IMG/VR virus record: IMGVR_UViG_3300021375_000154
Location: 1-24,808 of that record
Reading direction: 5' to 3' (one strand)
DNA: 24,808 nt
DNA from: a virus
Positions 1 through 24,748 of the stretch are shown piece after piece. The translations under genes were made by a program, and so were the position numbers. The first letter of the stretch is position 1. Every line of letters starts with the position of its first letter. The notes under the pieces are model-generated. The model had not been told where the DNA came from and searched no databases. It was given only the letters and a program-made list of their open reading frames with translations.

Positions 1-2
1 GC

Positions 3-302: not shown

Positions 303-305
303 ACA

Positions 306-2035: not shown

Positions 2036-2048
2036 ATAGGAGATAGAT

Positions 2049-4789: not shown

Positions 4790-4797
4790 GGATTATT

Positions 4798-5499
4798 ATG
4801 TCTGATTATACAAAAGCAACTAACTTTACATTAAAAGACGGATTAAGCAGTGGTGACGCAGGTAAGATTATTAAAGGATCAGAGATAGATGCAGAGTACA
4901 CAGCTATTGCATCTGCTGTAACATCTAAAGCTGATCTAAATGGTCCTACGTTTACTGGAACACCTGCTGCACCTACAGCATCTTTTGGAACATCAAGCAC
5001 ACAATTAGCTACAACAGCTTTTGTTCAAGCTGGTTTAGCTGGTGCGTATCCTGTTGGTTCTATTTACATGAACGCTACTGTAGCAACTAACCCTGCTACG
5101 TTACTTGGGTTTGGTACTTGGGTAGCGTTTGGAGCAGGTAAAGTTCCTGTAGGTTTAAATGCTGCTGACTCAGACTTTGACACTGTAGAAGAAACTGGTG
5201 GTAGTAAAGATTCAATTATACCTACACACAACCATGCAGCAGGAACTCTTGTAAACGCTTCTGCTGGAGCGCACCAGCACACAACTGGAACAGGTAGATC
5301 AGCAAGTACTGCTGGTAGTACTGTAAGTTACTTTTCTGGATTACAAGGAGGAGCTTCTGGTACAGCTTTGTCAACTACAGATTCACAAGGCGCACACGTT
5401 CATACAATATCGGGTGACACAGCTAATGCAGGTGAATCAGCAACAGGTAAGAACTTACAACCGTACATCGTAGTTTATATGTGGAAGCGTACAGCTTAA
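4798..5499 (+). CDS. Short tail fibre / collar-domain protein with HxH motifs
   Basis: Residues 48-76 read like a phage fibre repeat (GPTFTGTPAAPTASFGTSS, then QLATTAFVQ). From about 84 a receptor-binding collar module follows: YPVGSIYMN, LLGFGTWVAFGAGKVPVG, then three HxH pairs (144-146 HNH, 159-161 HQH, 200-202 HVH) and the terminal LQPYIVVYMWKRTA. This layout matches gp10/gp12-type short-fibre C-terminal domains, in which HxH pairs coordinate metal along a trimer axis in the T4 gp37 tip; metal binding here is inferred. At 233 aa it is a short fibre, distinct from the tail protein at the window start. Confidence 0.8.
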   Translation: MSDYTKATNFTLKDGLSSGDAGKIIKGSEIDAEYTAIASAVTSKADLNGPTFTGTPAAPTASFGTSSTQLATTAFVQAGLAGAYPVGSIYMNATVATNPATLLGFGTWVAFGAGKVPVGLNAADSDFDTVEETGGSKDSIIPTHNHAAGTLVNASAGAHQHTTGTGRSASTAGSTVSYFSGLQGGASGTALSTTDSQGAHVHTISGDTANAGESATGKNLQPYIVVYMWKRTA

Positions 5500-5517
5500 T
5501 TTTAAAAGGGCAAACAA

Positions 5518-6459: not shown

Positions 6460-6461
6460 TT

Positions 6462-7598: not shown

Positions 7599-7599
7599 C

Positions 7600-10548
7600 A
7601 TGGCAGCTATAAAACTACCTACATACGAAGAGTATAAGCAAAGGCTTGCTGCTAATACTCCTCTTATTAAGCCTGAAGAGATGGCTGATCCTGTAGCACA
7701 AGAAGAGCCAATAGATTATGACAGTCTTCCTAAAGTAGATTACATACCTGAAGGTGGTATAGAAATACCTAGACCAACTGCTCCTGAGATTATGTCTTAT
7801 GGGTGGAATGTCAAAGGCATAACAGACTGGCAGAGTCTAGGTAAAATAGGCAGGATAAAAGGTTGGTTTAATGGAGGCATGTTTGATGGATCTGAGTACA
7901 AACAACTTGATGAATTTTATGGTGAAGATTTTAATAATTTAACTGAGTCAGAAAAAAGAGATAGAATAAATGAGGTTGACAGGTTAAATACAATTAGAAA
8001 TAATTTTTCTGTTCTTGCTTACGGAGAAGATAATTCTTTATTAGCTGGTGCTTCTGGTTTTGTAGGGACGTTAGCAACACCTACTACTCTTGTTCCTGGT
8101 TTGTCATGGGCTAAGTATGGAGCAACAGGTCTTGGAGTTACCTCTGCTTTATTTGGGGGAGAGTATAACTTACTAGAACAGTACGCTAATAAAGGTAATG
8201 TTAATATGGGGGAGTTAGCAACTACAACAGCACTTGCTGGAGCAGGTGGTTTAGGTTTAGGACTAGCAGGTAAAGGCGTAATGCGTTTGTTAAACGGTGC
8301 AAAGCCTGTAGCTGTTTCTCAAAAAAGCATTGCTCAATCAGAAGCAGATCAGATACAAGATGCTATGGATGATGCTGTTATAGATGAGATACCGCCAGAA
8401 AAATTAAATGAATATGTAAAAGAAAAGACAGGGTTTTCTGATGATAAAGTAGTGAGTGCTACTGCTAATGCAGAAAGAAAGCCACAGCCTAGAAGTAAAG
8501 AAGAGATACTAGAGACTAGAGAAATTGAAAAGACAAGTATAGACGCAGATACTATCAACAGAAGTCCTACTGTTAATAGGTACGTTACTCCTATTATTGA
8601 AGGCTTTGCAAGAATAGACGAGAAGTTTAAACTAGATGGTTTATTAAAGAACAGAGTTAATCGTTACTTCTATCGTAGCTATACAAATGCTATGGATAAA
8701 ATAACTCCATCACATAGTTTATTAAAAGGGTATAAGAAGATGCCCAAACAACAACAAGAATCTTTTGATAATTTACTTCTTAATCCTACCGAAGAAAACA
8801 TAGCTGCTGCTGGTAAACTTCTTGATGACTATTCTCCTGTTAGTGCTAAAGAGCTACAGGATTTAATGACTAAAGTTAGACAGATGACAGACGAGTTAAA
8901 GGCTGCAGGTATAGACGTACCAGCTAATCCTAACTACATCCCTCGTATTGTTAAAGATTCAAAAGGACTTCAAAGGTTTCTTAATAAGAATCCAGAAGTT
9001 GATACTGTTGTACAGAAAGCATTAAAGCAAAGAGCGCAAGCACTTAAATTAAAAGACACTACTAAATTAAGTAATGAAGATAGAAACTTTATTATTAGTA
9101 ACATACTACAAGGTAGACATGTTGGTACTAATAAAGCAGGTAAATTATATTCAAGAACAAAAAAGACTAGACCTAAAAGAGAAACATTTTTAGAGCCTCG
9201 TAAAATAAAACTAGTTAATAAAGAAATGCAAAAGTATTATGAGAATCCTTTAAATTCTACTATGCGTTATTTTATGGATGCTCATAAACTTATAGAAAAA
9301 AGAAACTTTTTCAATTACAAAAATACTAAGAACGCTACCATGAAGGGTACGGGTTTAGATTTAGAAAAATCTGCTACTAATTTTTTTAAAGATTTAGAAG
9401 ATGCAAACCTAGATGATAATACTGTAACAAGACTTGAAGAAATGTTCAAAGCAATTTTTGTTGATGCTGACAGATCATTAGGTGGGGCACAGAAAGCATA
9501 CAAAGACTTAGTTAATGCTTCACTGTTGGCTAATCCTTTATCAGCACTAACGCAGCTAGGTGATGTTACTTTAGGTGCTTGGAAATTAGGTGTTAAGAAC
9601 GTAGCAAAAGGTTTAGTAGGCAGGGATGTAGACATTGTAAAAGATTTAAACATAGATCAAGCAATGTTAGAACATTTTTCTTCTGGTACTAGCATGACTA
9701 AATTAGTTGATGATATGCTAGAGCTTACTCAGTTTAAAAGAATGGACCGTTTAGGTAAAACATCTATTATAAATGGAGCGTGGAAAAACGTACAGAACAA
9801 AGTTAAAACTGACAAAGGAATTGCTCAGTTAAAAAAAGAATACGGTACTGCTTACGGTCCTGAGTTTAATAAATTTATATCTGATATTAAGAATGGAGAA
9901 ATAACACCGCTTACAAAAGAGTATCTGTTTAATCAGTTAGCGGAGTTCCAACCTATTACTCCTGCTCAAATGCCAGAGGCATACTTAACAGCAAACAATG
10001 GTAGGCTACTATATACCTTACAAAGTTTTACTATTAAACAAGTAAATTTAATTAGAAAAAACATAGTAGAAGAAGTACAGAAAGGTAACTATAAACAAGC
10101 AGCTAAAAATTTATTAGGTTTTTCTTTATTGATACCTCCTTCAAACATGGCTATTGATTACGGTAAGGAAAGGTTATTAGGTAGAGATCCTGATTTTTCA
10201 GATGAGTTAGTTAGAAGGTACGCTAACAACGCACTTAAAGTGTTTGGTTCTTCTGAATATGCTGTTGATAGGTTACTTAAGACAGGTAAGCTAGGTGATT
10301 TTATTCAAGATACTTTCTTACCTCCTATGGAAATGTTTGACGGGTTGATTAAAACTGGTCAAGCAGCAATAGTTAATCAAGAATTTGATCCTGCTGTAAC
10401 TGCACAGCTACCAATAGTAGGAAGACTCGCCCATTACTGGGTATTTGGTGGGCTAGAAGATTGGAACGAGAAACAGAAACAAAAAGATCGTAGAGAATAT
10501 AACGAAAAATATGGTATCGATAAAAAGAAATATGGAATGGAAGGTTAA
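7600..10548 (+). CDS. Large internal virion / DNA ejection protein
   Basis: At 982 aa this is the largest protein in the window. Residues about 145-190 (LLAGASGFVGTLATPTTLVPG, split by small residues) and about 204-232 (MGELATTTALAGAGGLGLGLAG) are Gly/Ala-rich hydrophobic segments that could span a membrane. The long middle is helical and highly charged. The C-terminal third holds LLYTLQSFTIKQVN, a hydrophobic FSLLIPPSNMAI segment, and LPIVGRLAHYWVFGG, a motif I associate with large ejected or polyvalent phage proteins. I see no transglycosylase or protease active site. Position and size match T7 gp16 or P22 gp16 roles. It has a GAGGTAAC ribosome site just before the ATG. Confidence 0.65.
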   Translation: MAAIKLPTYEEYKQRLAANTPLIKPEEMADPVAQEEPIDYDSLPKVDYIPEGGIEIPRPTAPEIMSYGWNVKGITDWQSLGKIGRIKGWFNGGMFDGSEYKQLDEFYGEDFNNLTESEKRDRINEVDRLNTIRNNFSVLAYGEDNSLLAGASGFVGTLATPTTLVPGLSWAKYGATGLGVTSALFGGEYNLLEQYANKGNVNMGELATTTALAGAGGLGLGLAGKGVMRLLNGAKPVAVSQKSIAQSEADQIQDAMDDAVIDEIPPEKLNEYVKEKTGFSDDKVVSATANAERKPQPRSKEEILETREIEKTSIDADTINRSPTVNRYVTPIIEGFARIDEKFKLDGLLKNRVNRYFYRSYTNAMDKITPSHSLLKGYKKMPKQQQESFDNLLLNPTEENIAAAGKLLDDYSPVSAKELQDLMTKVRQMTDELKAAGIDVPANPNYIPRIVKDSKGLQRFLNKNPEVDTVVQKALKQRAQALKLKDTTKLSNEDRNFIISNILQGRHVGTNKAGKLYSRTKKTRPKRETFLEPRKIKLVNKEMQKYYENPLNSTMRYFMDAHKLIEKRNFFNYKNTKNATMKGTGLDLEKSATNFFKDLEDANLDDNTVTRLEEMFKAIFVDADRSLGGAQKAYKDLVNASLLANPLSALTQLGDVTLGAWKLGVKNVAKGLVGRDVDIVKDLNIDQAMLEHFSSGTSMTKLVDDMLELTQFKRMDRLGKTSIINGAWKNVQNKVKTDKGIAQLKKEYGTAYGPEFNKFISDIKNGEITPLTKEYLFNQLAEFQPITPAQMPEAYLTANNGRLLYTLQSFTIKQVNLIRKNIVEEVQKGNYKQAAKNLLGFSLLIPPSNMAIDYGKERLLGRDPDFSDELVRRYANNALKVFGSSEYAVDRLLKTGKLGDFIQDTFLPPMEMFDGLIKTGQAAIVNQEFDPAVTAQLPIVGRLAHYWVFGGLEDWNEKQKQKDRREYNEKYGIDKKKYGMEG

Positions 10549-10550
10549 CT

Positions 10551-11309
10551 ATGGCTAGTGTATTCGATAAGTATCTAACTACAAACAAGTATCAGCAACA
10601 GAGAGATGCAAGTCCTGTGTTGTCTGCTATTAATCAAAGAAGGCAGCCTACATACGATGAGATACAGGAACAGGAAAGACTTAATCGTAAGGCAGGTGTT
10701 ACCTTACCTAGATTTCAAGGTAGTCTTAAAGCAGGACAAGCCTTAAAAAATATAGGTGGTCTGACTTATGTAGTAGAAGATGGTGCTGCTGCTCCAACAG
10801 AAGAAACAGTATCTACTCCTAGAGGCATGAACTTATTTGAAGAAGCGCTTAGTCTTCCTGATGAACCTGCTCCACCTACATATCAAGGTGGTATGCCAGA
10901 GCGTAGACCAATGCAACCACCTGTGCGTTCTGAGCAAGGATTGTTTAATCCTCCTCAACCACAGATGCAACCACCTACAATAGATACAACCATTGATGAT
11001 CTGATGTCACAGTTACAAGGCTACGGTAGACCACCTACTATGCCTGACTTTGATAAGCCTGCACAAAGAGACTTAGGTTTACCTGACTTCACTACTCCAG
11101 GATTTGCACCTCCAGGTTTAATGACTCCTCAGTTACCACAACCCAACGTACCTCAAGTAGCTATGCAGCCTAATGTTCCTGATACGCAGAGCGATACTTA
11201 TACTACAACTGCTGAAGAAGCTATTATAAGAGGATCAACTAGTGACATGACAGATGAAGAGTTTGATGCGTACATTAATAATTATTACAATTCTCTTATG
11301 GGTAGATAA
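10551..11309 (+). CDS. Pro/Gln-rich putative virion protein, unknown
   Basis: This 252-aa protein has a structured-looking N-terminus to about residue 80, then a low-complexity region (about 100-215) in which proline makes up roughly a fifth of residues, with recurring PPT, QPQMQPP and PNVP units. It ends with an acidic helix, MTDEEFDAYINNYYNSLM. I recognise no family. It follows the big ejection protein by 2 bp and its last 56 bp overlap the upstream start choice of the lysozyme gene. Disordered Pro-rich tails in late phage proteins often mediate assembly contacts, but function here is unknown. Confidence 0.55.
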   Translation: MASVFDKYLTTNKYQQQRDASPVLSAINQRRQPTYDEIQEQERLNRKAGVTLPRFQGSLKAGQALKNIGGLTYVVEDGAAAPTEETVSTPRGMNLFEEALSLPDEPAPPTYQGGMPERRPMQPPVRSEQGLFNPPQPQMQPPTIDTTIDDLMSQLQGYGRPPTMPDFDKPAQRDLGLPDFTTPGFAPPGLMTPQLPQPNVPQVAMQPNVPDTQSDTYTTTAEEAIIRGSTSDMTDEEFDAYINNYYNSLMGR

Positions 11310-11973
11310 TAGCATGGCACAAATAGTAGATCCAAATCCAATAAGATTTCTTGATGCCTTTGGTAATAAAATAGGTAGTGATGGCTTTGAAGCTGCAACA
11401 GGTATCTATGATTTTAACAAACAAGCTGACAGAACAGAGGCAGCTAATAAAGGGTTTTATAAGACAGGTGAAGCTGCTGTTGATCTAGCAAAAAGTACTT
11501 TTGATAGAGAACTTAGTCCTCAAGAAAAGTTATTAATTAAGCATGAAGGTTTTACTACTGTTCCTTATTTAGATACTGAAAGCATACCAACAATAGGCAT
11601 AGGTCAGACAGGGCAGTACTTTGATCCGTTAGATATACAAACAGGATTTGAAGAAGCGGTGGCAGATAAAACTAATGCAGTAAAAGAAGAGTTTGATGAT
11701 GCTTACAATTTAGCAGATGACACTAAACAAGGAGCATTACTAAGTTTAGTTTATCGAGGTGACACAAGAAATAAAAATACAGGTAACCTTTATCAGTGGG
11801 TAGGTAAGTATAAAAAGGCAGTAGATAGTGGTAAAAAAGCAGACATGAATAAAGCCTTTGAAGAGTTCTGGGATAACAAAGAATACAAAGACTTAATGGT
11901 TGATGATCCTGATGGTGGTGTCTTGACTAGGATAAGAGAAAACTCTAATATCTTATTTGGTAAGACTAAGTAA
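11254..11973 (+). CDS. GH24 / T4-type lysozyme (endolysin), possibly secreted
   Basis: The protein carries the lysozyme signature LLIKHEGF...YLDTESIPTIGIGQTG. The catalytic Glu, Asp and Thr are spaced 9 and 6 residues apart, as in T4 lysozyme E11-D20-T26; counting from the ATG at 11314 they are E78, D87 and T93. GALLSLVYRGDTR further on is typical of pesticin/T4-type muramidases. It hydrolyses peptidoglycan glycan strands. The start is uncertain. From 11254 (239 aa) the first 22 residues look like a secretion signal: MKSLMR, hydrophobic TLIIITILLW, then SMA before the possible cut. The ATG at 11314 (219 aa) would give a cytoplasmic enzyme. Neither has a strong ribosome site. A small membrane protein follows by TAATG. 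Confidence 0.8.
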   Translation: MKSLMRTLIIITILLWVDNSMAQIVDPNPIRFLDAFGNKIGSDGFEAATGIYDFNKQADRTEAANKGFYKTGEAAVDLAKSTFDRELSPQEKLLIKHEGFTTVPYLDTESIPTIGIGQTGQYFDPLDIQTGFEEAVADKTNAVKEEFDDAYNLADDTKQGALLSLVYRGDTRNKNTGNLYQWVGKYKKAVDSGKKADMNKAFEEFWDNKEYKDLMVDDPDGGVLTRIRENSNILFGKTK

Positions 11974-12131
11974 TGGAACAGTTCATCATCAACTTCTGGG
12001 AGATCATATCAGGTCTTCTTATTGTAGTGTTCCTAGCAATAACTTGGAAGGCAGAAATTGGGGCGCGCATCTCAGTGTTAGAAGAGAAAGTACGCGCCCT
12101 GTTTGATCTAGTTAACAGTAAGAAAGATTAG
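11973..12131 (+). CDS. Small membrane protein, holin candidate
   Basis: This 52-aa protein has an N-terminal hydrophobic segment (IISGLLIVVFLAITW, about 11-25) and a C-terminal amphipathic, coiled-coil-like helix (ARISVLEEKVRALFDLV). It is translationally coupled to the lysozyme gene (TAATG). Lysozyme followed by a one-helix membrane protein is a common lysis cassette, so holin is the leading idea; an internal virion accessory remains possible. It is the last rightward gene: its stop overlaps the ribonucleotide reductase stop on the other strand by 4 bp. Its coding sequence contains a GC-rich inverted repeat that stands out from the AT-rich surroundings. Confidence 0.6.
   Translation: MEQFIINFWEIISGLLIVVFLAITWKAEIGARISVLEEKVRALFDLVNSKKD
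12061..12099. terminator. GC-rich inverted repeat near the convergent junction
   Basis: GGGCGCG (12061-12067) and CGCGCCC (12093-12099) form a perfect 7-bp, all-GC stem with a 25-nt loop. It lies inside the last rightward gene, 30 bp before the point where the late and early arms meet. There is no T-run on either strand, so it is not a classical intrinsic terminator. It could slow polymerase or protect 3' ends, or be chance. GCG-CGC codons are unusual in this AT-rich gene set. Confidence 0.3.
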
Positions 12132-14020
12132 ATTTCACACACCCCTGCTGTACAAGCCAGTTGCTGTGCTCCTTCTACGTTGTCATCCTCTTCAGTAAGA
12201 CTATCCCAATCAATAGTATCAGGCATCTTATGAAGCAGTTCCAAGTACTCTTCCTCGCTGCACTCTTCGTATGGTGCTTGGCGATATGTACCTCCATCAT
12301 AGGGTAAGAAACTTACACCACTGATATCATCGAAGTTCTTCCAACACCAAGCCCCTACCTCTACCCACTCGTCCTCCTCCACTGAGATGGTAACTGATGG
12401 CTTGTGTTCACACCAATGCTTCTGATACATCATCCATAAGTCTAGGTGCTGAGTAGCTGTCAAGTCCTCACGCAGTAGTGCATTGTGTGGTGCTTTCTTA
12501 GGAAAGCTGAAGACAGTAGTAGACTCAGGACGCATGACACAATCTTCTGATGGTATCCCTTGCTCTGTCATGAACGATGTAAGAGGATCTTTCTTATCGC
12601 CCCTAACCCTGCGGACATAATACTTACTATGTCGAGGATGAATACCACTGGCAGAATCAACAAGCTGACTAACAGTGCCACTAGGTTTAACACAAGTGAT
12701 GGCAGTAGAACAAGGAATATTGAGGTCAGTGGATAGCTGTAAGTTAGTATCAACTGATATGTCTTTGAGTCGTTCAAGAAGTGTTCTAGTCTGTTCAACA
12801 GTATCTCCTAATAGTTTGTTGTCCAGTATACCAGTCAGTGATACACCTAGTAATCTCTCTTCCTCAGTGTTGCGTTGCCATATCTTTCTAAGGTAAGGGA
12901 AGTGTGTCATAGTAGACTGATAAGTACCTAACTGTGTAGCCAGTCTGACCTTACGTTCTAGGTCATAGATACTATCACCTTCTCTGACTACTACCTCAGA
13001 TAGATTACAGAACTGGTATGGTCTAAGGATAATCTCAGAGCATGGGTTAGTACCAAACTCCTGTTCAGTATCTCTACGTCCATTCTTCTTAGCCTGATTG
13101 ATAGCAGCCTCTCTGTTAAAGATACCACGCTCACCACTGTGACTATGATATAAGCTAGTCCACTCATTCATGAACTGTCCTACGTCAGGCTTGGTAATAT
13201 ATACAGCAGAGTTGTTAGCCAATGCTCTGTGAGGATTAGCTTCCCACCATTGACCTGTCTTAGCGTGACGCATCTTGTCATCCTCTAGGTCAGACAATGA
13301 GATCATAGCTGAACGCCTAACACCACCCACTACTACTACCTCAGCTACCTTACACATGATGTCGTGGCACTCTAGGGTGTTGAGCTTACGTCCTGCTGCA
13401 CCTTGAAACTTACGGATAACAAACTCAAACAACTCATTGAGTGGTGCTGGTCCACTGGCTCTACCACCAAAGGTCTTGAGTCTAGCACCTGCTGGTCTGA
13501 TCTTTCTTAGATCCCACTTAGGTATCTCACCTGAGTACAGTAGTGCTATGACTTGACGTAATGCTTTAGCCCAGCCTTCTTTACTATCAGATACAACAAC
13601 AGTAGAGTCAGACTTAAACATCTTCTCTGGTATCTCAGGTAGCTTGTCAACATACTTATGTTCAACACTAAAGCCTACACCAGTACCACACAGTAAGATA
13701 TACATAGCCTCATCAAAGCATTTAGGATCATCAACAGGTAGATAACTACAGTTGTATCCTGCTGTGTTGTCCCTCTCAAGAGCCTTACCTGCTGTCATAA
13801 TAGAACGCATGGAAGGTACTATCTCTAAGTTCTTAATGGCTTCACGAAGCTCTGAGTCTGTCTCCATAGGCATGACATACTCATGCTTAGTCTCCAGATG
13901 TTTCTTCATGAAGTCCATGTATCTATCTACTGTTTCATTCCAGTCTTCTCTACGTCCGTCTGCTTCTACAAATCTACAGTACCTAGACTTCGCTATATAC
14001 TGCTGGTAAAAATCCATCAT
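12128..14020 (-). CDS. Adenosylcobalamin-dependent ribonucleoside-triphosphate reductase (class II, monomeric)
   Basis: This 630-aa enzyme makes deoxyribonucleotides for phage DNA synthesis using B12 as radical source. Visible residues: NTAGYNCSYLP with Cys91, NPCSEI with the thiyl Cys327 and Glu329 behind Asn325, FCNLSEV with Cys338 as the disulfide partner of Cys91, VKPSGTVSQLVDSASGIHPR, and the C-terminal redox pair CTAGVC (Cys623, Cys628) with the same five-residue spacing as the Lactobacillus leichmannii enzyme. It is shorter than that 739-aa enzyme, as in cyanophage forms. The start has AAAGGAAA upstream. A 52-aa gene overlaps its start by 4 bp, and its stop overlaps the rightward arm. 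Fold and cofactor class are secure; effector control cannot be read. Confidence 0.93.
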   Translation of the reverse strand: MMDFYQQYIAKSRYCRFVEADGRREDWNETVDRYMDFMKKHLETKHEYVMPMETDSELREAIKNLEIVPSMRSIMTAGKALERDNTAGYNCSYLPVDDPKCFDEAMYILLCGTGVGFSVEHKYVDKLPEIPEKMFKSDSTVVVSDSKEGWAKALRQVIALLYSGEIPKWDLRKIRPAGARLKTFGGRASGPAPLNELFEFVIRKFQGAAGRKLNTLECHDIMCKVAEVVVVGGVRRSAMISLSDLEDDKMRHAKTGQWWEANPHRALANNSAVYITKPDVGQFMNEWTSLYHSHSGERGIFNREAAINQAKKNGRRDTEQEFGTNPCSEIILRPYQFCNLSEVVVREGDSIYDLERKVRLATQLGTYQSTMTHFPYLRKIWQRNTEEERLLGVSLTGILDNKLLGDTVEQTRTLLERLKDISVDTNLQLSTDLNIPCSTAITCVKPSGTVSQLVDSASGIHPRHSKYYVRRVRGDKKDPLTSFMTEQGIPSEDCVMRPESTTVFSFPKKAPHNALLREDLTATQHLDLWMMYQKHWCEHKPSVTISVEEDEWVEVGAWCWKNFDDISGVSFLPYDGGTYRQAPYEECSEEEYLELLHKMPDTIDWDSLTEEDDNVEGAQQLACTAGVCEI

Positions 14021-14175
14021 TCTATTTCCTTTATTAGTTTATCGTAGTTCTCTTCTACTACATCTTCAAATCTATCTAGTATGTCAGACGAGGTAAGGTC
14101 TAATAGCTCTACAATATCTACCTCATCCAACATATTAAGTTTCTCTATGAGTTCAGCAAGCGTCAGTGTGGTCAC
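14017..14175 (-). CDS. Small acidic conserved phage protein with GTG start
   Basis: This 52-aa frame starts at GTG, with GGAG at 14183-14186 seven bases upstream, and ends in an ATGA overlap with the ribonucleotide reductase start. The sequence, LAELIEKLNMLDEVDIVELL followed by DLTSSDILDRFEDVVEE, is strongly acidic, helical and regular. I recall very similar small proteins (EKL..LDE..LLE.L.IS..D..DRF) encoded beside metabolic genes of cyanophages, so I regard it as real although it has no ATG start. It could be a helical adaptor protein; its role is unknown. It overlaps the upstream gene by 23 bp in another frame. Confidence 0.7.
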   Translation of the reverse strand: MTTLTLAELIEKLNMLDEVDIVELLDLTSSDILDRFEDVVEENYDKLIKEIE

Positions 14176-14443
14176 GTTCAGTCTCCAAGTCCTCTATCTC
14201 CATCAATACTAGAGTACAGTATCCAGAGATGTCACGCCATGAGTCATCATACAAAGGGTCACCATTAAGAATCCTAGCTAACTTGTTTGCTATTAACTCA
14301 AGAGACTCTACCATATAAGCTGGCATCAAAGGGTAATTACGAGAGTTCTTAATTACTTTCTTTATGTCCTGACTAATCTGACTAACATCTCTATATTCTC
14401 CATAAGTACCTGCTCTGGTTTGTAATACCTTTTTAATTTCCAT
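14153..14443 (-). CDS. DUF6378-like conserved phage protein
   Basis: This 96-aa helical protein contains RAGTYGEYRDVSQISQDI near the N-terminus and MVESLELIANKLARILNGDP in the middle, then DDSWRDISGYCTLVL. The Arg-x-x-x-Tyr-Gly opening and the regular helices match the DUF6378 family, a frequent phage protein next to nucleotide-metabolism genes. The four-helix pattern is reminiscent of all-alpha NTP pyrophosphohydrolases (MazG-like), but the acidic metal-binding Glu motifs of that family are not evident, so I do not assign activity. AAGGA lies six bases before the ATG, inside the end of the metallophosphoesterase gene. Confidence 0.65.
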   Translation of the reverse strand: MEIKKVLQTRAGTYGEYRDVSQISQDIKKVIKNSRNYPLMPAYMVESLELIANKLARILNGDPLYDDSWRDISGYCTLVLMEIEDLETERDHTDAC

Positions 14444-15197
14444 ACTGTTTCCTTAGATAATTAATCGAGACAGGCATCTCATCAAAGCTACCGTTGTCTA
14501 CCTCGTTAAGCATCCAGATACCAGACCAGCTACCGTTAGTCTGAGGAGTTAGATAGTCCTCGTCATGTTGATAGAAGATACCAGCAAAGATACCAGTGAT
14601 ACCTTTACCATCTGCCTTCTTGCTGAAGGAGATAGCTCGGTCTTGTACGTGACCCATTATACAACTCATGTGTTTCTTTTGCAAGAGTAAACCAGGATTA
14701 CTAACTGGTCTACCCATCACACCAGATGTAAAGTAATGGCTGTATGCTATGCCATTAACAATAGGTACAGAAAGAAAGTCATGAACCTCCCAGTTATATT
14801 TCTTTAGATTGAAATCACTGTAACCAATCAACCCTTCTAGTTTTCTATCTGACTCGATAGCTCTATCAATACGTTGCTCGTGATTACCAATAAGAAATAT
14901 CTTCTTAGGTTTCCATACCTTCTTCTTATTGACACGCTGCCTCTTCTGCTCCTCGATGATAGGCTTCATGAATACATCCATAGCTTTGTTACCAGCTTCG
15001 ATGTCATCATTGTATGTCCTACCCTCGAATGCTTTCTTACCTACGTCATAGACACTGAGACTTGGCATGTCCCAGTGATCTCCTAAATGAACTATAACAT
15101 CAGGCTTAGTCTTGACAGCGTACTCACCTGCCCATTCTAAATGCTCGAATGAGTTATTAGGTTTGCATTGTGTATCAGGGATTACTAAGTGTCTCAT
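14433..15197 (-). CDS. Calcineurin-like metallophosphoesterase
   Basis: The 254-aa protein shows the metallophosphoesterase motif series: DTQ at 8-10, GDHWD with Asp40 and Asp43, GNHE with Asn105, His106 and Glu107, and MGHVQD near 183. These residues bind two metal ions in the family, whose members cleave phosphomono- or phosphodiesters, including DNA ends and cyclic nucleotides. The C-terminal MPVSINYLRKQYG is a tail I associate with marine phage members. It sits between a resolvase-type nuclease (ATGA overlap) and a DUF6378 gene. A role in DNA processing during replication is likely; the actual substrate is not readable. Confidence 0.85.
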   Translation of the reverse strand: MRHLVIPDTQCKPNNSFEHLEWAGEYAVKTKPDVIVHLGDHWDMPSLSVYDVGKKAFEGRTYNDDIEAGNKAMDVFMKPIIEEQKRQRVNKKKVWKPKKIFLIGNHEQRIDRAIESDRKLEGLIGYSDFNLKKYNWEVHDFLSVPIVNGIAYSHYFTSGVMGRPVSNPGLLLQKKHMSCIMGHVQDRAISFSKKADGKGITGIFAGIFYQHDEDYLTPQTNGSWSGIWMLNEVDNGSFDEMPVSINYLRKQYGN

Positions 15198-15535
15198 GTT
15201 GACCTTTCTAACAACTGTAAATAATAGACCGCATCTATAACAACCAATGGGTCTGACTTGTTTTGTTTAACAACAACTACTGGTTCTCTACCTTCAGGGC
15301 AATTGTCTTTTGCTTGTGAATAGAAAGCATAGACAGCCATAGATTCTCTTGACTTACACTCAACAGATATCTTTAGCTTATCACCTGCCAACTGAGAGAA
15401 CAGGATGTCCTCACCGCCAGCACCCATACTTGTAGACCTTACATCGTCTTGGGAAAAGGGAAAGAGTTCGAGGATCTGATCTCGGAACCATTGCTGTAGC
15501 TTTCTTCCTTTGGCTTTTGCACTTTGGGTTTTGAT
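15194..15535 (-). CDS. PD-(D/E)xK resolvase-type nuclease, apparent ATC start
   Basis: This is a 113-aa protein of the small Holliday-junction-resolvase-like class. The N-terminus reads (I/M)KTQSAKAKGRKLQQWFR, followed by FPFSQDDVRSTSMGAGGED and SVECKSRE, giving the Asp...Glu-x-Lys metal-binding set (GGED, ECK). The only ATG (15427) falls in the middle of the conserved DDVRSTSMGAGGED block and would remove the first 36 residues, including the basic DNA-contact region. Upstream the same frame is open to a stop just before 15559, with no ATG, GTG or TTG. An ATC at 15535 has AAGGAG six bases before it (15542-15547) and gives the usual family N-terminus. It overlaps the upstream gene by 97 bp. 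Nuclease class is fairly sure; the start codon is the notable inference. Confidence 0.75.
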   Translation of the reverse strand: MKTQSAKAKGRKLQQWFRDQILELFPFSQDDVRSTSMGAGGEDILFSQLAGDKLKISVECKSRESMAVYAFYSQAKDNCPEGREPVVVVKQNKSDPLVVIDAVYYLQLLERST

Positions 15536-15825
15536 GGTTTTCTCCTTAAATCTAAGAACTTATCTAGTCTCACTTTCTTAATACTCTTAATCCACTGCTT
15601 CGGTATGTGTATCCTAGAGTTAGACTGATCGTGAGAGATTGCAGCAGCAAGACAGACAGCATCGTCAGTCTCATCTACTAAGAAACCTATGCTTAGTACA
15701 GGATGTACATCAGCTTTAGAGTTATCTTCCCATCCTGCATCAGCAACAGCATCAACCCATTGGACATAACCTATTGTGAATTGCTTGGCGGTTTCCACAA
15801 CTGCTTCTCTTGTCTTCTTATCCAT
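15439..15825 (-). CDS. Conserved phage protein of unknown function (GFLV...HIPKQWI family)
   Basis: This 128-aa protein has a compact conserved core: YVQWVDAVADAGW, PVLSIGFLVDETDD, VCLAAAIS and SRIHIPKQWIKSIKKV. I recall such sequences as unassigned proteins in replication modules of many proteobacterial phages. After about residue 95 the sequence becomes low-complexity and basic (RRKPSKPKVQKPKEES); this tail is exactly the stretch that doubles as the start of the overlapping nuclease, so it may be under constraint for the other frame. The 5' end overlaps the exonuclease by 55 bp, with GAGG five bases before the ATG. Function unknown. Confidence 0.65.
   Translation of the reverse strand: MDKKTREAVVETAKQFTIGYVQWVDAVADAGWEDNSKADVHPVLSIGFLVDETDDAVCLAAAISHDQSNSRIHIPKQWIKSIKKVRLDKFLDLRRKPSKPKVQKPKEESYSNGSEIRSSNSFPFPKTM
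15542..15547 (-). promoter_or_regulatory. Ribosome binding site for the ATC-started nuclease
   Basis: AAGGAG on the minus strand is followed by six bases (AAAACC) and ATC. It lies inside the upstream gene's coding frame (Leu-Arg-Arg-Lys codons), and no other start codon follows at suitable distance in any frame. It decides the start of the nuclease at 15535. Confidence 0.55.
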
Positions 15826-16484
15826 AGCAACCTCGCACGTTCAGTTAGTTTATCAATGTCATTGTCGTAAGCAGACAGCACCTCGTCAAATAATTGTTGC
15901 TCACCTTCACAGTCTTTAAGTATCTTCTCTGCTTTCTTAGGTCCAATACCTCTTAATCCTGGAATGTTATCAACACGATCACCAGTTAGTATCTGCATAT
16001 AAAAGTTTCTTATGGCATCTTCTTCCTTTACATAATATAAATCTTGTTTAACAAAGTTGTAGTGCCAGCCACGTAACATGTCTAAGTCTTTATCAATAGA
16101 CATGACACATGACTGGTCTTCGGGTAACTCGTAGACAGCAATACCTATAGCATCATCTGCCTCTTGACCTTGAATTAATTCAAAGCCCCACTTGCTAACC
16201 AAGTATTCTCTAAGGGTGTCGTAGTGTACTGGTTTTCTGTTGTTAACTCTATTACCCTTGTAGTCTTGCTCAGTAGCAATCTTATCTCGGTAGTTTCCTT
16301 TACCTGTGATGTAGCCAGAGTAGGACTCGACACCTTGAACACTTAATAAGTTATCAATGAAGTGTCCCATCCTAGAGATAGCATACTTCTCTTCCTCTGG
16401 ATCATCAACAGAGAATCCCACACGATAGACGAGGATGTCCCCATCAATGAGGGCTTTGACATCCTGCATTGACGGGGTACTCAT
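15771..16484 (-). CDS. 5'-3' exonuclease / flap endonuclease (T7 gp6-like role)
   Basis: This 237-aa protein has the FEN/5'-nuclease metal ligands: D14 and D16 (LIDGDIL), the E108-A-D-D111 cluster, SIDKDLD (D131, D133) and GDRVDNIPG with D169 and D172, followed by the helix-hairpin-helix-type LRGIGPKKAEKIL that grips DNA. Such enzymes remove RNA primers and degrade host DNA for nucleotide recycling; T7 gp6 does both. Length fits stand-alone phage nucleases. The start overlaps the SSB stop (TAATG). Assignment to the family is secure; the balance of exo- and endonuclease activity is not visible. Confidence 0.9.
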   Translation of the reverse strand: MSTPSMQDVKALIDGDILVYRVGFSVDDPEEEKYAISRMGHFIDNLLSVQGVESYSGYITGKGNYRDKIATEQDYKGNRVNNRKPVHYDTLREYLVSKWGFELIQGQEADDAIGIAVYELPEDQSCVMSIDKDLDMLRGWHYNFVKQDLYYVKEEDAIRNFYMQILTGDRVDNIPGLRGIGPKKAEKILKDCEGEQQLFDEVLSAYDNDIDKLTERARLLWIRRQEKQLWKPPSNSQ

Positions 16485-16894
16485 TACAACGCTTCTTCTA
16501 AACTATCATCAAGAGCAGACTCGTCAGCATCGTATACAATCAAGTCAGTAATGACTAGCTTGTTGATACCTGCGGATACACCTGCCTTACCTTTGAACTG
16601 GTAAGCATAGGGCTTGATCCACGCTACTCCTTTTGATCCATTACCTACCTTTCCTGATACGCCTGAACCATCTGGCATCTCAGTCTTGATAGGAAACTTC
16701 TTAGATTTAGCTACAATATAGAAGCCTTTATCTTCCTTACGCTTCACCTCGATACCTTGATCCTCTAGTGCAGAGACTGCACCATCAGATAGGTTACACA
16801 AATCAACCTGATACTTCTCAGACATCTGGTTAGGTGTGTCAAGGAAAGCCCACATGATATCAGCTTTTACCTTTATTGCTTTTAAGTCTTGCAT
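16484..16894 (-). CDS. Single-stranded DNA-binding protein (T7 gp2.5-like)
   Basis: The 136-aa protein begins MQDLKAIKVKADIMWAFLD, with an OB-fold-like beta pattern (KYQVDLCNLSD, IEVKRKEDKGFYIVAKSKK, GVAWIKPYAYQFKGK). It ends in an acidic tail, YDADESALDDSLEEAL, the usual hook by which phage SSBs contact polymerase and primase-helicase. I chose the ATG at 16894 because AAGGAG (16902-16907) lies seven bases upstream and this gives the typical N-terminus. A longer frame from 16924 would add ten residues and overlap the polymerase gene. Its place between polymerase and 5' exonuclease supports the call. Confidence 0.8.
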   Translation of the reverse strand: MQDLKAIKVKADIMWAFLDTPNQMSEKYQVDLCNLSDGAVSALEDQGIEVKRKEDKGFYIVAKSKKFPIKTEMPDGSGVSGKVGNGSKGVAWIKPYAYQFKGKAGVSAGINKLVITDLIVYDADESALDDSLEEAL

Positions 16895-16905
16895 TTTACT
16901 TCTCC

Positions 16906-18546
16906 TTAGTGTGTTGTTGCCCAATTAGTACCTATCTTATACTCACCATCGAGTGGACAACGTAGCCCTAGTGTGAGTCCTGCTTCCTGAATTGCCTGAA
17001 CGCCAGCTTGACCTACAGATTCAGCAAGTTTTTCATTCGTTTCTATCTGCCATTCATCATGAACATTAGCTACAAATGAAGCATCCATTATAACACGATT
17101 TAGTTTAGAATGCAACAATACTAATGCTTGTTTCATTACTACTGCACCTGCTCCTTGTAGTAATACATTCAAGGCAGCGTGTGCTGATCGAACCATGAGC
17201 CTACGACCATCAAGACTAGGTAGCCAACCACGTTTAGCTAGTCTATCTACCTTCTGTCTCAGTGTCTTGAGTGCTGGTGTGTTGGCAAGGAAGCTATCGA
17301 TTAACTTCTTACCTTCACGTTCACCACCACCTACGATAGCACCTATCTTAGCTGGACCTGCACCATAAAGAAAAGCATATATAAAAGTCTTGGCTTGATC
17401 CCTGTTAGTAAGACCTGCTGCTTTCATGTTCTTAGTATGAATGTCACCACTCAGTATCTCGTTGGTGTACTCCTCGTCACGCATGTAGTGTGCAAGCATA
17501 CGTAACTCAAGACCACTAGCGTCTATACCTACCAGTACATTACCATCCTCTACTGTCCAACACTCACGACACTCCTTACCAAACGGATTACCTACACGAG
17601 GAACCTGTGCAAGATTAGGTTTAGAATGAGTCATCCTACCTGTCACTGCTCCGTTGGTGATGATCTTACAGTGAACCCTGTCGGAGTTATCAGCATGGTC
17701 AATCCATGATTCAACTTGAGCCACCCGTTTCTGAACGAGTAAGTATTCTGCAATGAGTTTAGCTTCAGGTAAGTCAATAGTTTGTAATACTTTCTCATCA
17801 ACGATCACCGATCCTTTCTCTGTGTGCTTAGTTGGTTGCCAACCCAGAGTCATCAAGCGTTCTGCTATCTGCTTACGTGATCCAGGATTGAACACTTCTA
17901 CTTTGTCCTTGAGTCTGTTGCCTGTCTTCTCGCTATACCTACGTGTTACAATAGGTCTGAAAACTTCTTGTAGTTCTTCCTCAATTTCGTGTAGTCTTTT
18001 CCTCCAACCTGCCAAAAGGAATAACGCTTTCTTAACATCGAGCTTGAATCCTTTCTCTTCCTGTTGCTTAACAATAAGAGCGACTTGATGTTCGAGATCC
18101 AATGAGTTACCCCATACCAATAGATCATTGCTAAGACGCTTATGTAGTGTCTCGGTAACGGAAACATCTTGTTTACAATAGCTGACCATCTCTTCTGTAA
18201 GCCCACCATCAAAGTCTTTGAAGTCATCCTTGTAGTTTCCTAGTCTGTGACCCCAAGCTCTGAGTGAATGTCCTCCCTCGATGATTGGGTTCAGTAGTCT
18301 TGACATGACTAGCGTGTCTGATATTTTGTGATGAGTTGTATCGATACCCCATACCTTTTGTAGCACAGGCTGATCGAACCCTATGATATTGTGTCCTATC
18401 AATGTGCTTCTTTCTGTTAGGTATTCTGCTAATTGATCTTTCTCTTCCCATACTCTTACCTCCTTAGTTGATAAGTCTTTAGTAACAGCACACCAGATAT
18501 GAGTGGCTGTGCTGTTAGTCTCAATGTCTATGATGATTGACCTCAT
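16906..18546 (-). CDS. DNA polymerase, family A (T7-like) with 3'-5' exonuclease
   Basis: This 546-aa replicative polymerase carries the proofreading motifs IIDIET (D7, E9), IGHNIIGFDQP and YCKQDVSVTE. The polymerase motifs follow: TGRMTHSKPNLAQVP; motif A GIDASGLELRM (D342); motif B NRDQAKTFIYAFLYGAG (R382, K386, Y390); and motif C NVHDEW (H496, D497, E498). The tyrosine four residues after the motif B lysine matches T7 Y526, equivalent to E. coli F762. It is about 160 residues shorter than T7 gp5. I see no obvious thioredoxin-binding insertion, but alignment is needed to be sure. The start overlaps the primase-helicase stop (ATGA). Confidence 0.95.
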   Translation of the reverse strand: MRSIIIDIETNSTATHIWCAVTKDLSTKEVRVWEEKDQLAEYLTERSTLIGHNIIGFDQPVLQKVWGIDTTHHKISDTLVMSRLLNPIIEGGHSLRAWGHRLGNYKDDFKDFDGGLTEEMVSYCKQDVSVTETLHKRLSNDLLVWGNSLDLEHQVALIVKQQEEKGFKLDVKKALFLLAGWRKRLHEIEEELQEVFRPIVTRRYSEKTGNRLKDKVEVFNPGSRKQIAERLMTLGWQPTKHTEKGSVIVDEKVLQTIDLPEAKLIAEYLLVQKRVAQVESWIDHADNSDRVHCKIITNGAVTGRMTHSKPNLAQVPRVGNPFGKECRECWTVEDGNVLVGIDASGLELRMLAHYMRDEEYTNEILSGDIHTKNMKAAGLTNRDQAKTFIYAFLYGAGPAKIGAIVGGGEREGKKLIDSFLANTPALKTLRQKVDRLAKRGWLPSLDGRRLMVRSAHAALNVLLQGAGAVVMKQALVLLHSKLNRVIMDASFVANVHDEWQIETNEKLAESVGQAGVQAIQEAGLTLGLRCPLDGEYKIGTNWATTH

Positions 18547-20135
18547 AGTACGTCTTCCTCTTCGTCTTTACGTTCAATCATTCTACCAGAATCCAAGTCA
18601 TAAAGCAAGCGACACGCTGGTCCAGTGAGTCCAGAGAATCTGTTCTTGAGTACACGTACATGAGTGGTGTGTCTCTCAAGTGGATCATCATCCTGACCAT
18701 TACGTTCCAGTCCAATCACTAGGTCTGATAGCTGTGCAATAGAACCAGAGCCACGTAATTGTGACAAAGATGTGGCAGCGCCTTCCTCATGTCCCTTACC
18801 ATCAGGTCTTTTGAGATGTGACACAACGAACAACGAGATACCACACTCAGCCACGAGCATACGTAGCTTAGTCATGATCTCATCGATAGACTTACGCTCA
18901 TCACCTGACCCCTGTGCTGACACGACTATGGACACGTGATCCAAGAACACGAAACGACAACCTAATCCTTTAGCCAAGTAACGAACTCGACTCAGTATGT
19001 TATCGATACTCGTTGATCCGAAGTGATCGAACAAGAACATACGACCTGTGCCTAGCGTAGCATCAAACGACTGACGCAACTCATCAGTGGTGTACTCTAC
19101 ATCAGGTAGGTGCAACGGCTTGTTAGCATGGAGTGACATGATAGAACGTGCTGTCTTGTTGGTTGATTCCTCTAAGAACATCAGCCCTATGTTATCGTCT
19201 GTGTTCTTCAGAACATGCCACACTAACTCACGTACAAACTGTGACTTACCTAGTCCTGACCCTGCTGTGATAGTCACAAGCTCCTCACGTATACCATACG
19301 ACAGCTTGTTGAGTCCTCTGAATGGGTAGTCAACAATGCTCTTCTCGACAGGCTTAGACACCTCATCCCACAAGGTAGAGCCATCGATGATACCATCCGG
19401 TACATAGCGTTCGGACTGCCACCACTTCTCAAAGAATAACTTCTCATCTCCTCGGCTCAAGTAATCGCAACCATCCTTGAACTCAGACGTAGACTTGAAC
19501 ACCTTGATCTTAGAACCAAAGACTTCAGCTATCTGCTTAGACGCTTCGTGTCCTTGATCGTCATTGTCCATGAACACAACGATGGAATCAAAACTATCAA
19601 GCCACTCATAGTTCTTACGGATGTCAGCACCTGCTGATCCTGCTCCGTTCCTGATTGATACAACAGGGTACTTACTGCCTAGCATCTGGTAACAGGCGAG
19701 GGCATCCATCTCACCTTCTACTATGGTTACATACTTACCGCCCTTGTTAAACAAATGCTGACCAAACAAGCCACCCTCCCTCCAATCACCTACGGTAGAG
19801 AACTTCTTGTCTACAATGCCACGCTTCTTGTACGCTACTACATCGTTGTCATTGTGATACGGAAACCAGTAGCTGTTACTGTCTTGCACAACGCCATACT
19901 TCTCGCACGTTGCTTTGGTTATGCCTCGATCAACGATAGTCTTAGAGACTGCATCGTCATCTGGTTCTGCCATCTTAGTAGAATGGAGTGTCATCTTGTT
20001 CCTTTGTGTTTGATTATTGCCACCCGTCCAGTGCCTTGTCTTACACGAGAAGCAATAGGTAGAGTTCTCGTAGTAAGTCAAAGCATCTGAAGAGCCACAG
20101 TCATTACATGGTTGATGTGTTTTTATTTTATTCAT
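18543..20135 (-). CDS. DNA primase-helicase (T7 gp4-like)
   Basis: This 530-aa protein has an N-terminal zinc ribbon (C10, C13, C28, C31) that reads primer sites. A TOPRIM primase domain follows (VTIVEGEMDAL near 136-145; VVFMDNDDQG near 186-195). The C-terminal half is a RecA-like hexameric helicase with Walker A AGSGLGKS at 291-298, EES at 322-324, Walker B FVFLDH, VVSHLKRP and LRGSGSIAQLSD. It unwinds the fork and lays primers for the adjacent polymerase. The protein is complete with both activities. No Shine-Dalgarno precedes the ATG; the upstream 58 bp are A/T-only for long runs, so initiation may rely on an unstructured leader. Confidence 0.95.
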   Translation of the reverse strand: MNKIKTHQPCNDCGSSDALTYYENSTYCFSCKTRHWTGGNNQTQRNKMTLHSTKMAEPDDDAVSKTIVDRGITKATCEKYGVVQDSNSYWFPYHNDNDVVAYKKRGIVDKKFSTVGDWREGGLFGQHLFNKGGKYVTIVEGEMDALACYQMLGSKYPVVSIRNGAGSAGADIRKNYEWLDSFDSIVVFMDNDDQGHEASKQIAEVFGSKIKVFKSTSEFKDGCDYLSRGDEKLFFEKWWQSERYVPDGIIDGSTLWDEVSKPVEKSIVDYPFRGLNKLSYGIREELVTITAGSGLGKSQFVRELVWHVLKNTDDNIGLMFLEESTNKTARSIMSLHANKPLHLPDVEYTTDELRQSFDATLGTGRMFLFDHFGSTSIDNILSRVRYLAKGLGCRFVFLDHVSIVVSAQGSGDERKSIDEIMTKLRMLVAECGISLFVVSHLKRPDGKGHEEGAATSLSQLRGSGSIAQLSDLVIGLERNGQDDDPLERHTTHVRVLKNRFSGLTGPACRLLYDLDSGRMIERKDEEEDVL

Positions 20136-23131: not shown

Positions 23132-23392
23132 TTATGCTTCGTCAGTTTGAGTGATGTTGAATACTGTGAAATATTTGGGAACTTGTGCCATCTTTAACTC
23201 CCCCGTCTTCTTGCTTCTCTTCTTGATTGAGACTACTCGCATGAGTCCAATTCCTTTTTCCCCTTTCCTTACCTGCCTCCCCACTTCCTGCGCTTGCCGA
23301 TAGGTTAAAAAGTGAGGGTCGTCGTATCCACTCATCGATAGAGCTACAAAGTTTTTTCCTGTATATGGTTGTTTAGTAACAAAATTAATCAT
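23132..23392 (-). CDS. Free-standing ArdC N-terminal-like domain (candidate anti-restriction)
   Basis: This 86-aa protein reads INFVTKQPYTGKNFVALSMS, HFLTYRQAQEVGRQVRKGEKG and YFTVFNITQ, which follows the ArdC N-terminal (ssDNA-binding, DUF1738-type) layout: NP.TGK.YRG.N at the start, T..QA...GG.V.KGEKG in the middle, Y.VFN..Q at the end. Full ArdC proteins are about 300 aa and add a zinc metallopeptidase domain with HExxH; that part is absent here and the frame closes cleanly. ArdC protects incoming DNA from host restriction, so a very early position fits. Whether the N-domain alone is active is unknown. GGAG lies upstream of the ATG with usual spacing. Confidence 0.7.
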   Translation of the reverse strand: MINFVTKQPYTGKNFVALSMSGYDDPHFLTYRQAQEVGRQVRKGEKGIGLMRVVSIKKRSKKTGELKMAQVPKYFTVFNITQTDEA

Positions 23393-23845: not shown

Positions 23846-23852
23846 TGTAAGA

Positions 23853-23860
23853 CCTCCTTT
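23853..23860 (-). promoter_or_regulatory. Strong ribosome binding site of the first early gene
   Basis: AAAGGAGG on the minus strand lies seven bases before the ATG at 23845 and is the best match to the 16S tail in the early region. It decides the start of the papain-fold gene over the longer frame from TTG 23977. Confidence 0.7.
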
Positions 23861-23970
23861 TGTTAATGCGTTCAACGCTCTATTATCTAAAACGCTGAAG
23901 GCATTAGCCTCACACTTTAACGAATTTCTAAGGGCTTTCAGTCTCTCAAGCGTTCGCGCCCCTTTGTTAT

Positions 23971-24252
23971 CGTGCAAGGCTGGTATGCCTTACTTGTGTT
24001 AATCTGGACTTCAGTGTTTCCACCTACTAACCTGTCAACCTACTTAGCGCATTACCTATGGCTACGCTTTCAGCCGATCCTTTGCCAGTCCCTAGTCTTT
24101 CACAGTTGATTCACTTGGGGTTCGAGTGCCTTTCGGCTCCGGCTCAAGCTCACCGTAGGTGGCTATCGTGCTACTCTTACCCCTTGCTACTACCAGTGCT
24201 ACTGCGACTTGGTATGGTTCCCATTGTGAACGCATCCGACGGTGGTGTCAAG
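23971..24252 (-). ncRNA. Candidate structured leader RNA of the early operon
   Basis: This block has no credible gene and looks GC-richer than its surroundings. Read on the minus strand it holds several perfect small hairpins, two capped by GAAA tetraloops: GCC-GAAA-GGC (24137-24128), GTG-GAAA-CAC (24023-24014), CACC-TAC-GGTG (24161-24151), AAGGC-ATACCA-GCCTT (23991-23976) and GTTC-ACAATGG-GAAC (24231-24217). GNRA loops appear only in this orientation, which favours an RNA copied with the early genes. Short repeats are present too: AGTAGCA three times within 24205-24165, and GCACGATA twice (24171 and 23975 regions). It could be a long regulatory leader, a phage ncRNA or an RNA that blocks a host factor. 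I found no tRNA, and no convincing group I or II intron core. Confidence 0.4.
24223..24251 (-). promoter_or_regulatory. Candidate early promoter (perfect -35, A-tract UP-like element)
   Basis: On the minus strand TTGACA (24251-24246) follows an A/T-only run including seven A (24262-24253), resembling an UP element. Seventeen bases later is CACAAT (24228-24223), a four-of-six -10. A start near 24216 would give a leader of about 370 nt ahead of the first early gene. The weak -10 lowers confidence. The T-run on the opposite strand could instead be read as a terminator end. Confidence 0.4.
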
Positions 24253-24283
24253 CTTTTTTTAAATTATTTTATTCCCGAATTTA

Positions 24284-24324
24284 CCTACAGAAAATCATTA
24301 GATGAGCCTACGTAAAATCATTAG
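24284..24324. repeat. Tandem 18-bp imperfect direct repeat, 23-bp period
   Basis: CCTACAGAAAATCATTAG (24284-24301) and CCTACGTAAAATCATTAG (24307-24324) match at 16 of 18 positions with a period of 23 bp, about two helical turns. They lie 33 bp upstream of the TTGACA of the candidate early promoter, a place suited to an activator or repressor binding as adjacent dimers on one DNA face. The CTAATGAT part recurs just before the GTTATAAC repeat at 24521. Confidence 0.6.
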
Positions 24325-24443
24325 GCGGGTTATACCTTATATATATACGGGCGAGATATGATATGTTATAACATAACAATGATACAGTATCACAAAAGAT
24401 AGGCTAAGTCATTGATTTTAAAGGCTTTTGACGATCGGGTCAT

Positions 24444-24504: not shown

Positions 24505-24555
24505 GAGGGTATCGCCTAATGATATGTTATAACATCACATCCACGAACAGGCTAG

Positions 24556-24572
24556 ATGAGAATGATTCTCAT
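24556..24572. promoter_or_regulatory. Fur-box-like palindrome ATGAGAAT-G-ATTCTCAT
   Basis: A perfect 8-1-8 inverted repeat matches the 7-1-7 form of the Fur site (TGAnAATnATTnTCA), the operator of the bacterial ferric uptake regulator. It lies between the second and third GTTATAAC-type repeats. Fur binding by a host protein is inference; the same sequence could serve a phage regulator. Confidence 0.45.
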
Positions 24573-24721
24573 TAGCATTTATAAATGATACGTTATAACA
24601 TAACATCCCCACCCCCTCGATCTTTTTTAAATGATACGATATAACATAACATGAGGGTACATAGCCGATACACACACAAAGGCTAATGAGACTCACTCAA
24701 CTATGTAAATGCTAATGCAAA

Positions 24722-24748
24722 TGAGAATGATTCGTGTTTAGATTCTCA
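24722..24748. repeat. Second, split copy of the TGAGAAT element
   Basis: TGAGAATGATTC (24722-24733) repeats the left 12 bases of the Fur-like box, and ATTCTCA (24742-24748) repeats its right arm after a spacer. AAATGCTAATG just to the left is the inverted copy of ATTAGCATTT, which follows the box at 24556. The two elements are therefore arranged as diverged inverted copies about 150 bp apart. Confidence 0.5.

Follow-up and report, generated by a model that had tools for sequence, protein, structure and literature searches.

HK022 put suppresses transcription termination independently of protein through the beta' zinc-binding domain, the packaging RNA (pRNA) of phi29 is a structured phage RNA encoded beside the early genes, and GOLLD and ROOL are often stand-alone RNAs near tRNA genes. 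In ompA-type 5' stabilisers and the T7 RNase III ends, a helix secures the 5' end of the transcript, with a long stem located just upstream of the ribosome-binding site. The put RNA is ~70 nt in length, comprises two stem-loops downstream of early promoters, and is active over >10 kb without dedicated proteins (PMC9378689), and GOLLD combines a conserved 3' region with a variable 5' region (PMC12286853).

The leader RNA described here, posed at the head of the early operon of an uncultured phage, shares features with several of these systems. Similar to HK022 put, it is predicted to be a structured, first-transcribed RNA read from a host-type early promoter and heading a long early operon (PMC9378689), however it differs in its length (316–403 nt among relatives), its several domains, its tie to the ribosome-binding site, and the lack of both a sequence match to put and a downstream excess of terminators. 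Likewise, it resembles GOLLD, ROOL, and OLE as a large, ornate phage or bacterial RNA recognised by covariation, however it is shorter, has no Rfam match and no tRNA nearby, and forms an mRNA leader between promoter and ribosome-binding site in every relative. As a structured phage RNA encoded next to early genes it recalls phi29 pRNA, but its location in an mRNA leader, the absence of an Rfam match, and the presence of both TerS and TerL genes in the phage set it apart. With riboswitches and autoregulatory leaders it shares a cis position before the ribosome-binding site, and a folded domain with a hairpin near the Shine-Dalgarno sequence, but no known aptamer was found, its modules are swapped between phages, and any switch is only putative. 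The helix at its 5' end and the long stem directly upstream of the ribosome-binding site are reminiscent of the ompA-type and T7 stabilisers, although the leader is far more elaborate, with conserved unpaired motifs beyond what stability requires. As for cis-acting mRNA leaders in general, it lies directly upstream of a gene and shows covariation, with co-transcription suggested by the promoter and the gene order.

Genomic setting, promoter, and limits of the leader

The window, comprising the whole stretch of DNA analysed, is a 24.8-kb viral fragment with an overall GC content of 40.5%. Its early operon reads leftwards from 23845 to 12128, ~12 kb in one direction, and encodes a primase/helicase, a family A DNA polymerase, and a class II ribonucleotide reductase amongst others. 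In a further contig of the same phage (L003), the terminase genes are found past the window's right end, in the opposite direction, placing the leader in a divergent control region.

The product of the first early gene belongs to phrog_3754, where its function is unassigned. An alignment of relatives (A3) shows conserved residues Cys20, His112, and Asn122/Asp123, together with a conserved basic stretch, SFKRxxRKLxKxGR, in the N-terminal half of the protein. The AlphaFold model (pLDDT 89.6) matches the C39 peptidase domains of PCAT1 and ComA with Z scores of ~10 over 117–120 residues, with Foldseek alone giving only weak matches (best E 0.02), and a papain/C39-like peptidase fold is predicted, fold likeness being no proof of activity. 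The first genes of relatives encode differing yet homologous proteins of the MQDY.., MQQY.., and MPHY.. types. The second early gene (23132–23392, minus strand) encodes 86 residues matching the ArdC N-terminal domain (anti-restriction; Pfam PF08401, E 5e-16). The description of the leader as standing ahead of anti-host genes in the first-pass annotation therefore finds only partial support, in the anti-restriction domain of the second gene, the first having a papain/C39-like fold with no assigned role.

Table 1. Positions of the leader, its structural elements, and flanking features in the window
Feature	Position	Strand	Details
Sigma70-type early promoter	24223–24251	-	-35 TTGACA 24251–24246, 17-nt spacer, -10 CACAAT 24228–24223
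Leader RNA, ~371 nt	23846–24216	-	Expected start (CAUACC) to the base before ATG; homologous leaders in relatives
Exchangeable 5' module	23996–24216	-	67% identity to L010 5' module
P1, closes first domain	24091–24212	-	CCAAGUC 24212–24206 with GACUAGG 24097–24091; covariation
P1c	24117–24183	-	GGGGU 24183–24179 with ACCCC 24121–24117; kept in L051
P1d, one bulged base	24124–24176	-	GAGUaGC 24176–24170 with GCACUC 24129–24124; covariation
P1e hairpin	24151–24161	-	CACC-UAC-GGUG; relatives CCGC/GCGG, UCGC/GCGA, UACC/GGUA
P2	24004–24088	-	CUGG 24088–24085 with CCAG 24007–24004; immediately after conserved GGGA
P2b hairpin, GNRA loop	24013–24024	-	GGUG-GAAA-CACU; GGCG-GAAA-CGCU in L004, GCUA-GCAA-UAGC in L008
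Conserved 3' module and start codon	23843–23995	-	Covariance model R1 match, 139 bits, E 5e-29
Hairpin	23974–23993	-	GUAAGGC-AUACCA-GCCUUGC; GUAAGGC/GCUUUAC, GUAAGGC/GCCUUAC in relatives
Hb	23913–23974	-	CAC(ga)UAAC 23974–23966 with GUUA(aa)GUG 23921–23913; encloses conserved GCGAACGCUUGAGAGAC apical segment
17-bp hairpin	23865–23905	-	AAUGC-C-UUCAGCGUUUUA ... UAGAGCGUUGAA-C-GCAUU; ends 19 nt before ATG
Ribosome-binding site	23853–23858	-	AGGAGG; conserved in relatives
First early gene, 149 aa	23396–23845	-	phrog_3754; ATG at 23845

The promoter-like TTGACA noted in the first-pass annotation is followed by a -10 hexamer at a 17-nt spacing, with the pair matching 10 of the 12 sigma70 hexamer positions, and a TTGAC[A/T] -35 with a -10-like hexamer is found at the same place in most relatives, L030 and L032 excepted. 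As the -10 hexamer ends at 24223, transcription is expected to start near 24216–24217.

Further sequence elements surround this promoter. The direct repeat CCTAC(AG/GT)AAAATCATTAG, with copies 23 nt apart at 24284–24324, lies immediately upstream and also occurs in L030 and L032; as the promoters of these two relatives have no clear TTGACA -35, the repeat may bind an activator. Four palindromic operator-like copies close to TGATATGTTATAACATATCA are located upstream of the early promoter (24359–24378, 24520–24539, 24586–24605, and 24632–24651), none being expected by chance, and L006, L007, L008, and L051 carry similar sequences upstream of the leader. These somewhat resemble zinc-repressor (Zur) sites, with a half-site spacing unlike that of the enterobacterial box. 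The divergent control region also holds TGAGAATGATTCTCA (24557–24571), a perfect 7-1-7 palindrome that resembles a Fur box, with a second imperfect copy near 24716–24733 (0.24 expected at ≤2 mismatches). A close variant is kept upstream of the leader in seven relatives (L004, L011, L030, L031, L032, L033, and L051), and the palindrome is therefore conserved; these sites are possibly iron-regulator operators in a phage.

The structured RNA had initially been placed at 23971–24252, a block that is indeed relatively GC-rich (51%) and holds the repeats and capped stems ascribed to it, with three copies of AGTAGCA (24203, 24191, and 24175), two of GCACGATA (24171 and 23975–23968, the second straddling the edge of the block), and the GAAA-capped stems GCC-GAAA-GGC and GGTG-GAAA-CACT. 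The perfect hairpins offered as evidence do not exceed chance, as 6 stems of ≥4 bp with short loops compare with 4.3 in shuffled sequences (75 of 300 shuffles reach 6), and a single stem of ≥5 bp compares with 1.1. Folding of 23960–24270, close to these boundaries, gives a z-score of -0.49 against shuffles, which is uninformative because the promoter is included and the 3' module is cut off; single-sequence folding of the opposite strand gives a z-score of 0.1. Since 24252–24217 is promoter, the true unit begins near 24216, and the correctly bounded leader (24216–23846, minus strand) gives a z-score of -3.3 against dinucleotide shuffles. The claim of a structured non-coding RNA at the head of the early operon holds with these altered limits, however the evidence first given for it would not by itself have established an RNA, the actual structure resting on long-range helices absent from that list.

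Relatives of the leader and exchange of its modules

Homologous leaders are present in at least 16 further contigs, one in each and always directly before the first early gene. Relatives were sought in viral contigs using the first early protein, its alignment, two divergent first proteins, and DNA patterns, with the pattern TKGAGCCGGAGCCNNAARSC returning mainly chance coding matches in addition to L051; the set includes L007, which is nearly the same as L005, and L026, which is cut off at its 5' end. Full-length leaders give z-scores of -0.6 to -6.4 (median near -3), with 15 of 16 below -1. The leader is judged not to be protein-coding, as first proposed, since an open frame is not conserved across relatives: leaders differ in length by numbers that are not multiples of three, and one base fewer in L006 and one more in L017 put the sequence before the ATG out of frame.

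Searches of the window against Rfam 15, including GOLLD, ROOL, pRNA, EAR, intron, ribozyme, and riboswitch models, returned no match at the gathering threshold. The only match at E ≤ 5 was a chance match to PCA3_2 over the promoter region (13.6 bits against a threshold of 100), and nothing was found at E ≤ 0.5 in six relatives. No tRNA or tmRNA was detected in the window by ARAGORN, and neither the leader nor the first early gene matched phage records, including HK022, by blastn or tblastn. Within positions 1–20000 and 44000–54103 of the isolate HTVC103P, which has a related DNA polymerase, no match to R1, the covariance model of the 3' module, was found. In bacterial genomes, neither a relative of the first early gene nor an exact copy of a 3'-module pattern was found, which gives no prophage or host link. 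Together with the covariation found by comparative folding of homologous phage right ends, the absence of an Rfam match bears out the earlier suggestion of a long, folded leader outside the known RNA classes. A structured leader RNA family of uncultured phages almost certainly exists, and is best read as an uncatalogued RNA family of its own.

On the pattern of sequence identity, the leader is composed of two exchangeable modules that are inherited separately. The window and L010 share 89% identity in their 3' modules and 67% in their 5' modules (shuffled expectation 64%), whilst the reverse is seen with L051, where the 5' modules are 88% and the 3' modules 72% identical, and with L011, which follows L051 in this pattern. 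L011, L030, and L031 share 3' modules of 90–94% identity and have unrelated 5' modules. At least four unrelated 5' modules occupy this one locus.

Structures of the 3' and 5' modules

The 3' module (~120–150 nt) is common to all leaders, and R1 matches it in full exactly once in each contig, with every such match ending at the first early ATG; the weaker, partial matches either come from the same hairpin read on the other strand or do not exceed chance. The most strongly supported element is the 17-bp hairpin, recovered de novo by RNAalifold from an unguided MAFFT alignment of 16 sequences, in which 98.5% of its cells form standard pairs, compared with 25–48% when the partners are slid. Six pairs have changed on both sides, and neither its pairing nor its double changes are reached in any of 2000 replicates of a tree-based null, in which the substitutions of each column are re-drawn on the phylogeny. 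Among 4753 column pairs, the two that rank highest belong to this hairpin (E 0.025 and 0.175), in a sample too small for most single pairs to reach significance. The cells of this hairpin hold 49 G-U pairs and 1 A-C pair, which shows that selection acts on the minus-strand RNA rather than the DNA, as the G-U wobble is kept and would be a mismatch on the other strand. The base of the hairpin lies 18–21 nt from the AUG in relatives, while total leader length varies by 87 nt. Downstream of it comes AACAA in the window and the relatives nearest to it, with other A-rich sequence in the remaining leaders; as no U-run follows, the hairpin is not an intrinsic terminator. Compensatory changes are also observed in the apical stem. 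Helix Hb is canonical at 21 of 21 pairs in six relatives once its 2x2 loop is removed; in L006-, L011-, and L051-type leaders its position is taken by other helices.

In the 5' module, P1 pairs the 5' end of the transcript (CAUACC...) with a segment ending at GGGA. Seven distinct strand pairs occur in 10 relatives, including CCGAAAC/GUUUCGG (L011), CCGAGUG/CAUUCGG (L005), CCAAGUG/CACUUGG (L008), and CCGCAAU/AUUGCGG (L030), with 47 of 49 pairs canonical and five positions changed on both sides; 28 of 2000 tree-based replicates reach this pairing, and 6 of 2000 its double changes. P1d is represented by five distinct strand pairs (GAGUaGC/GCACUC, GUGUaGC/GCACAC, GUAAuAC/GUUUAC, GCAGaGC/GCCUGC, and GUAGgGC/GCCUAC), all 30 pairs being canonical, four positions having changed on both sides, and the bulge being present in all. 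Other relatives have CUAGUUAGA/UCUAACUAG or CAAGUUAGA/UCUAACUUG in the place of P1c, and the varying position of P2 is U-A, C-G, or G-C. Most of the 5' helices were spotted by eye before pairs were counted, and covariation in this module is drawn from few sequences, with single pairs not significant alone.

The 5' modules of the L006 type have neither sequence nor the P1 and P2 helices in common with those above, and possess a closing helix of their own, 7 bp long, in which several pairs have changed on both sides (CUUAGUC/GACUAAG to CUCAACC/GGUUGAG). All four leaders of this type (L006, L060, L068, and L069) retain two hairpin loops whose 8-nt segments, GCCACGGC and GCCGUGGC, are fully complementary, which suggests a kissing-loop or other long-range contact. 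The segment GAUUAAGAUACC of L006 was considered as a likeness of the 16S 790 loop and dropped, being absent from the window type and without an Rfam rRNA match.

Possible roles of the leader

The leader likely acts in cis at the start of the early mRNA, given its 5' position, the absence of a terminator, and the constant distance between the 17-bp hairpin and the AUG in leaders of varying total length. Translation or stability is the most likely target, since the conserved module lies at a fixed distance from the start codon, and we see about an even chance that the RNA is the 5' leader of the early mRNA acting in cis on translation initiation and/or mRNA lifetime. Starting at the sigma70-type promoter, host RNA polymerase would first transcribe the two modules, together ~370 nt. 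In the 5' module, pairing of the 5' end of the transcript (P1) would close a long branched domain, after which comes the P2 domain, and the 3' module would end with the 17-bp hairpin just upstream of the Shine-Dalgarno sequence. By keeping a fixed geometry to the ribosome-binding site, the 3' module would set translation initiation and/or the lifetime of the early mRNA, whilst the 5' module may protect the 5' end and act as a swappable domain on which a factor of the host or the phage docks. The size of the leader and its tertiary-looking motifs, which exceed the needs of translation or stability control, count against this explanation, as does a start region of unexceptional predicted accessibility.

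A riboswitch or autoregulatory leader, in which a ligand or the first gene product toggles between the 17-bp hairpin and a small AGGC-UAAU-GCCU hairpin beside the ribosome-binding site, appears quite improbable. The two hairpins are mutually exclusive, with the small one competing for the base of the 17-bp hairpin, its AGGC segment can also pair with the Shine-Dalgarno–AUG spacer in the window and L004, and the basic stretch of the first gene product is conserved. However, the small hairpin, whilst conserved in sequence, shows no covariation above the null and is broken in L069, leaving a switch only putative. Occlusion of the ribosome-binding site is likewise putative, as the accessibility predicted for the start region is not special (0.44, with no clear difference from the mean of 0.53 for other early genes), and the free recombination of 5' modules and first genes would be odd for a dedicated aptamer-gene pair.

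Processive antitermination similar to that of HK022 put, whereby the RNA binds host RNA polymerase and permits read-through of the ~12-kb operon without a phage protein, would account for the leader's position, directly after the early promoter and at the start of a long operon read in one direction, and for a window in which neither a phage RNA polymerase nor an N-like protein was seen. We nevertheless regard it as unlikely, as the minus-strand early operon holds only two weak intrinsic terminators (8 on both strands compared with 6.4 expected), the leader is five times the length of put and matches no phage record, and its conserved part is fixed to the ribosome-binding site rather than the promoter. 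The ornate fold, with its GNRA loops, bulged helix, and the complementary loops of the L006 type, and the unrelated 5' modules at one locus would also suit a trans-acting RNA, cut from the early transcript or accumulating alone, which binds host RNA polymerase, the ribosome, a nuclease, or a defence protein, in which case variation of the 5' module would mirror different hosts or an arms race. Such a role seems unlikely, given that no terminator or obvious processing site separates the RNA from the gene, the conserved module adjoins the ribosome-binding site at a constant distance, and no copy was found away from the early gene.

Action in cis on translation initiation and/or mRNA lifetime remains our preferred reading. 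It is conceivable, if rather doubtful, that the leader represents a new class of ornate phage RNA, a modular machine acting on host RNA polymerase or ribosomes at infection. If so, an invariant core beside the start codon would be combined with swappable 5' domains for host adaptation or for evading RNA-targeting defence, and the RNA would act in trans as an effector or else serve as an elongation factor that needs no protein and greatly exceeds put in size.

Knowledge of how long early operons are transcribed by host machinery in phages that encode neither an RNA polymerase nor an N-like protein, and of how early mRNAs are kept intact and translated, comes from few model phages. A leader of ~370 nt, conserved yet swapping domains among relatives, would be a new control element, and should the 5' modules prove host-specific, it would offer a rare case of RNA-domain shuffling under selection. 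More broadly, the leader indicates that phage early leaders can harbour elaborate RNAs missed by current catalogues.
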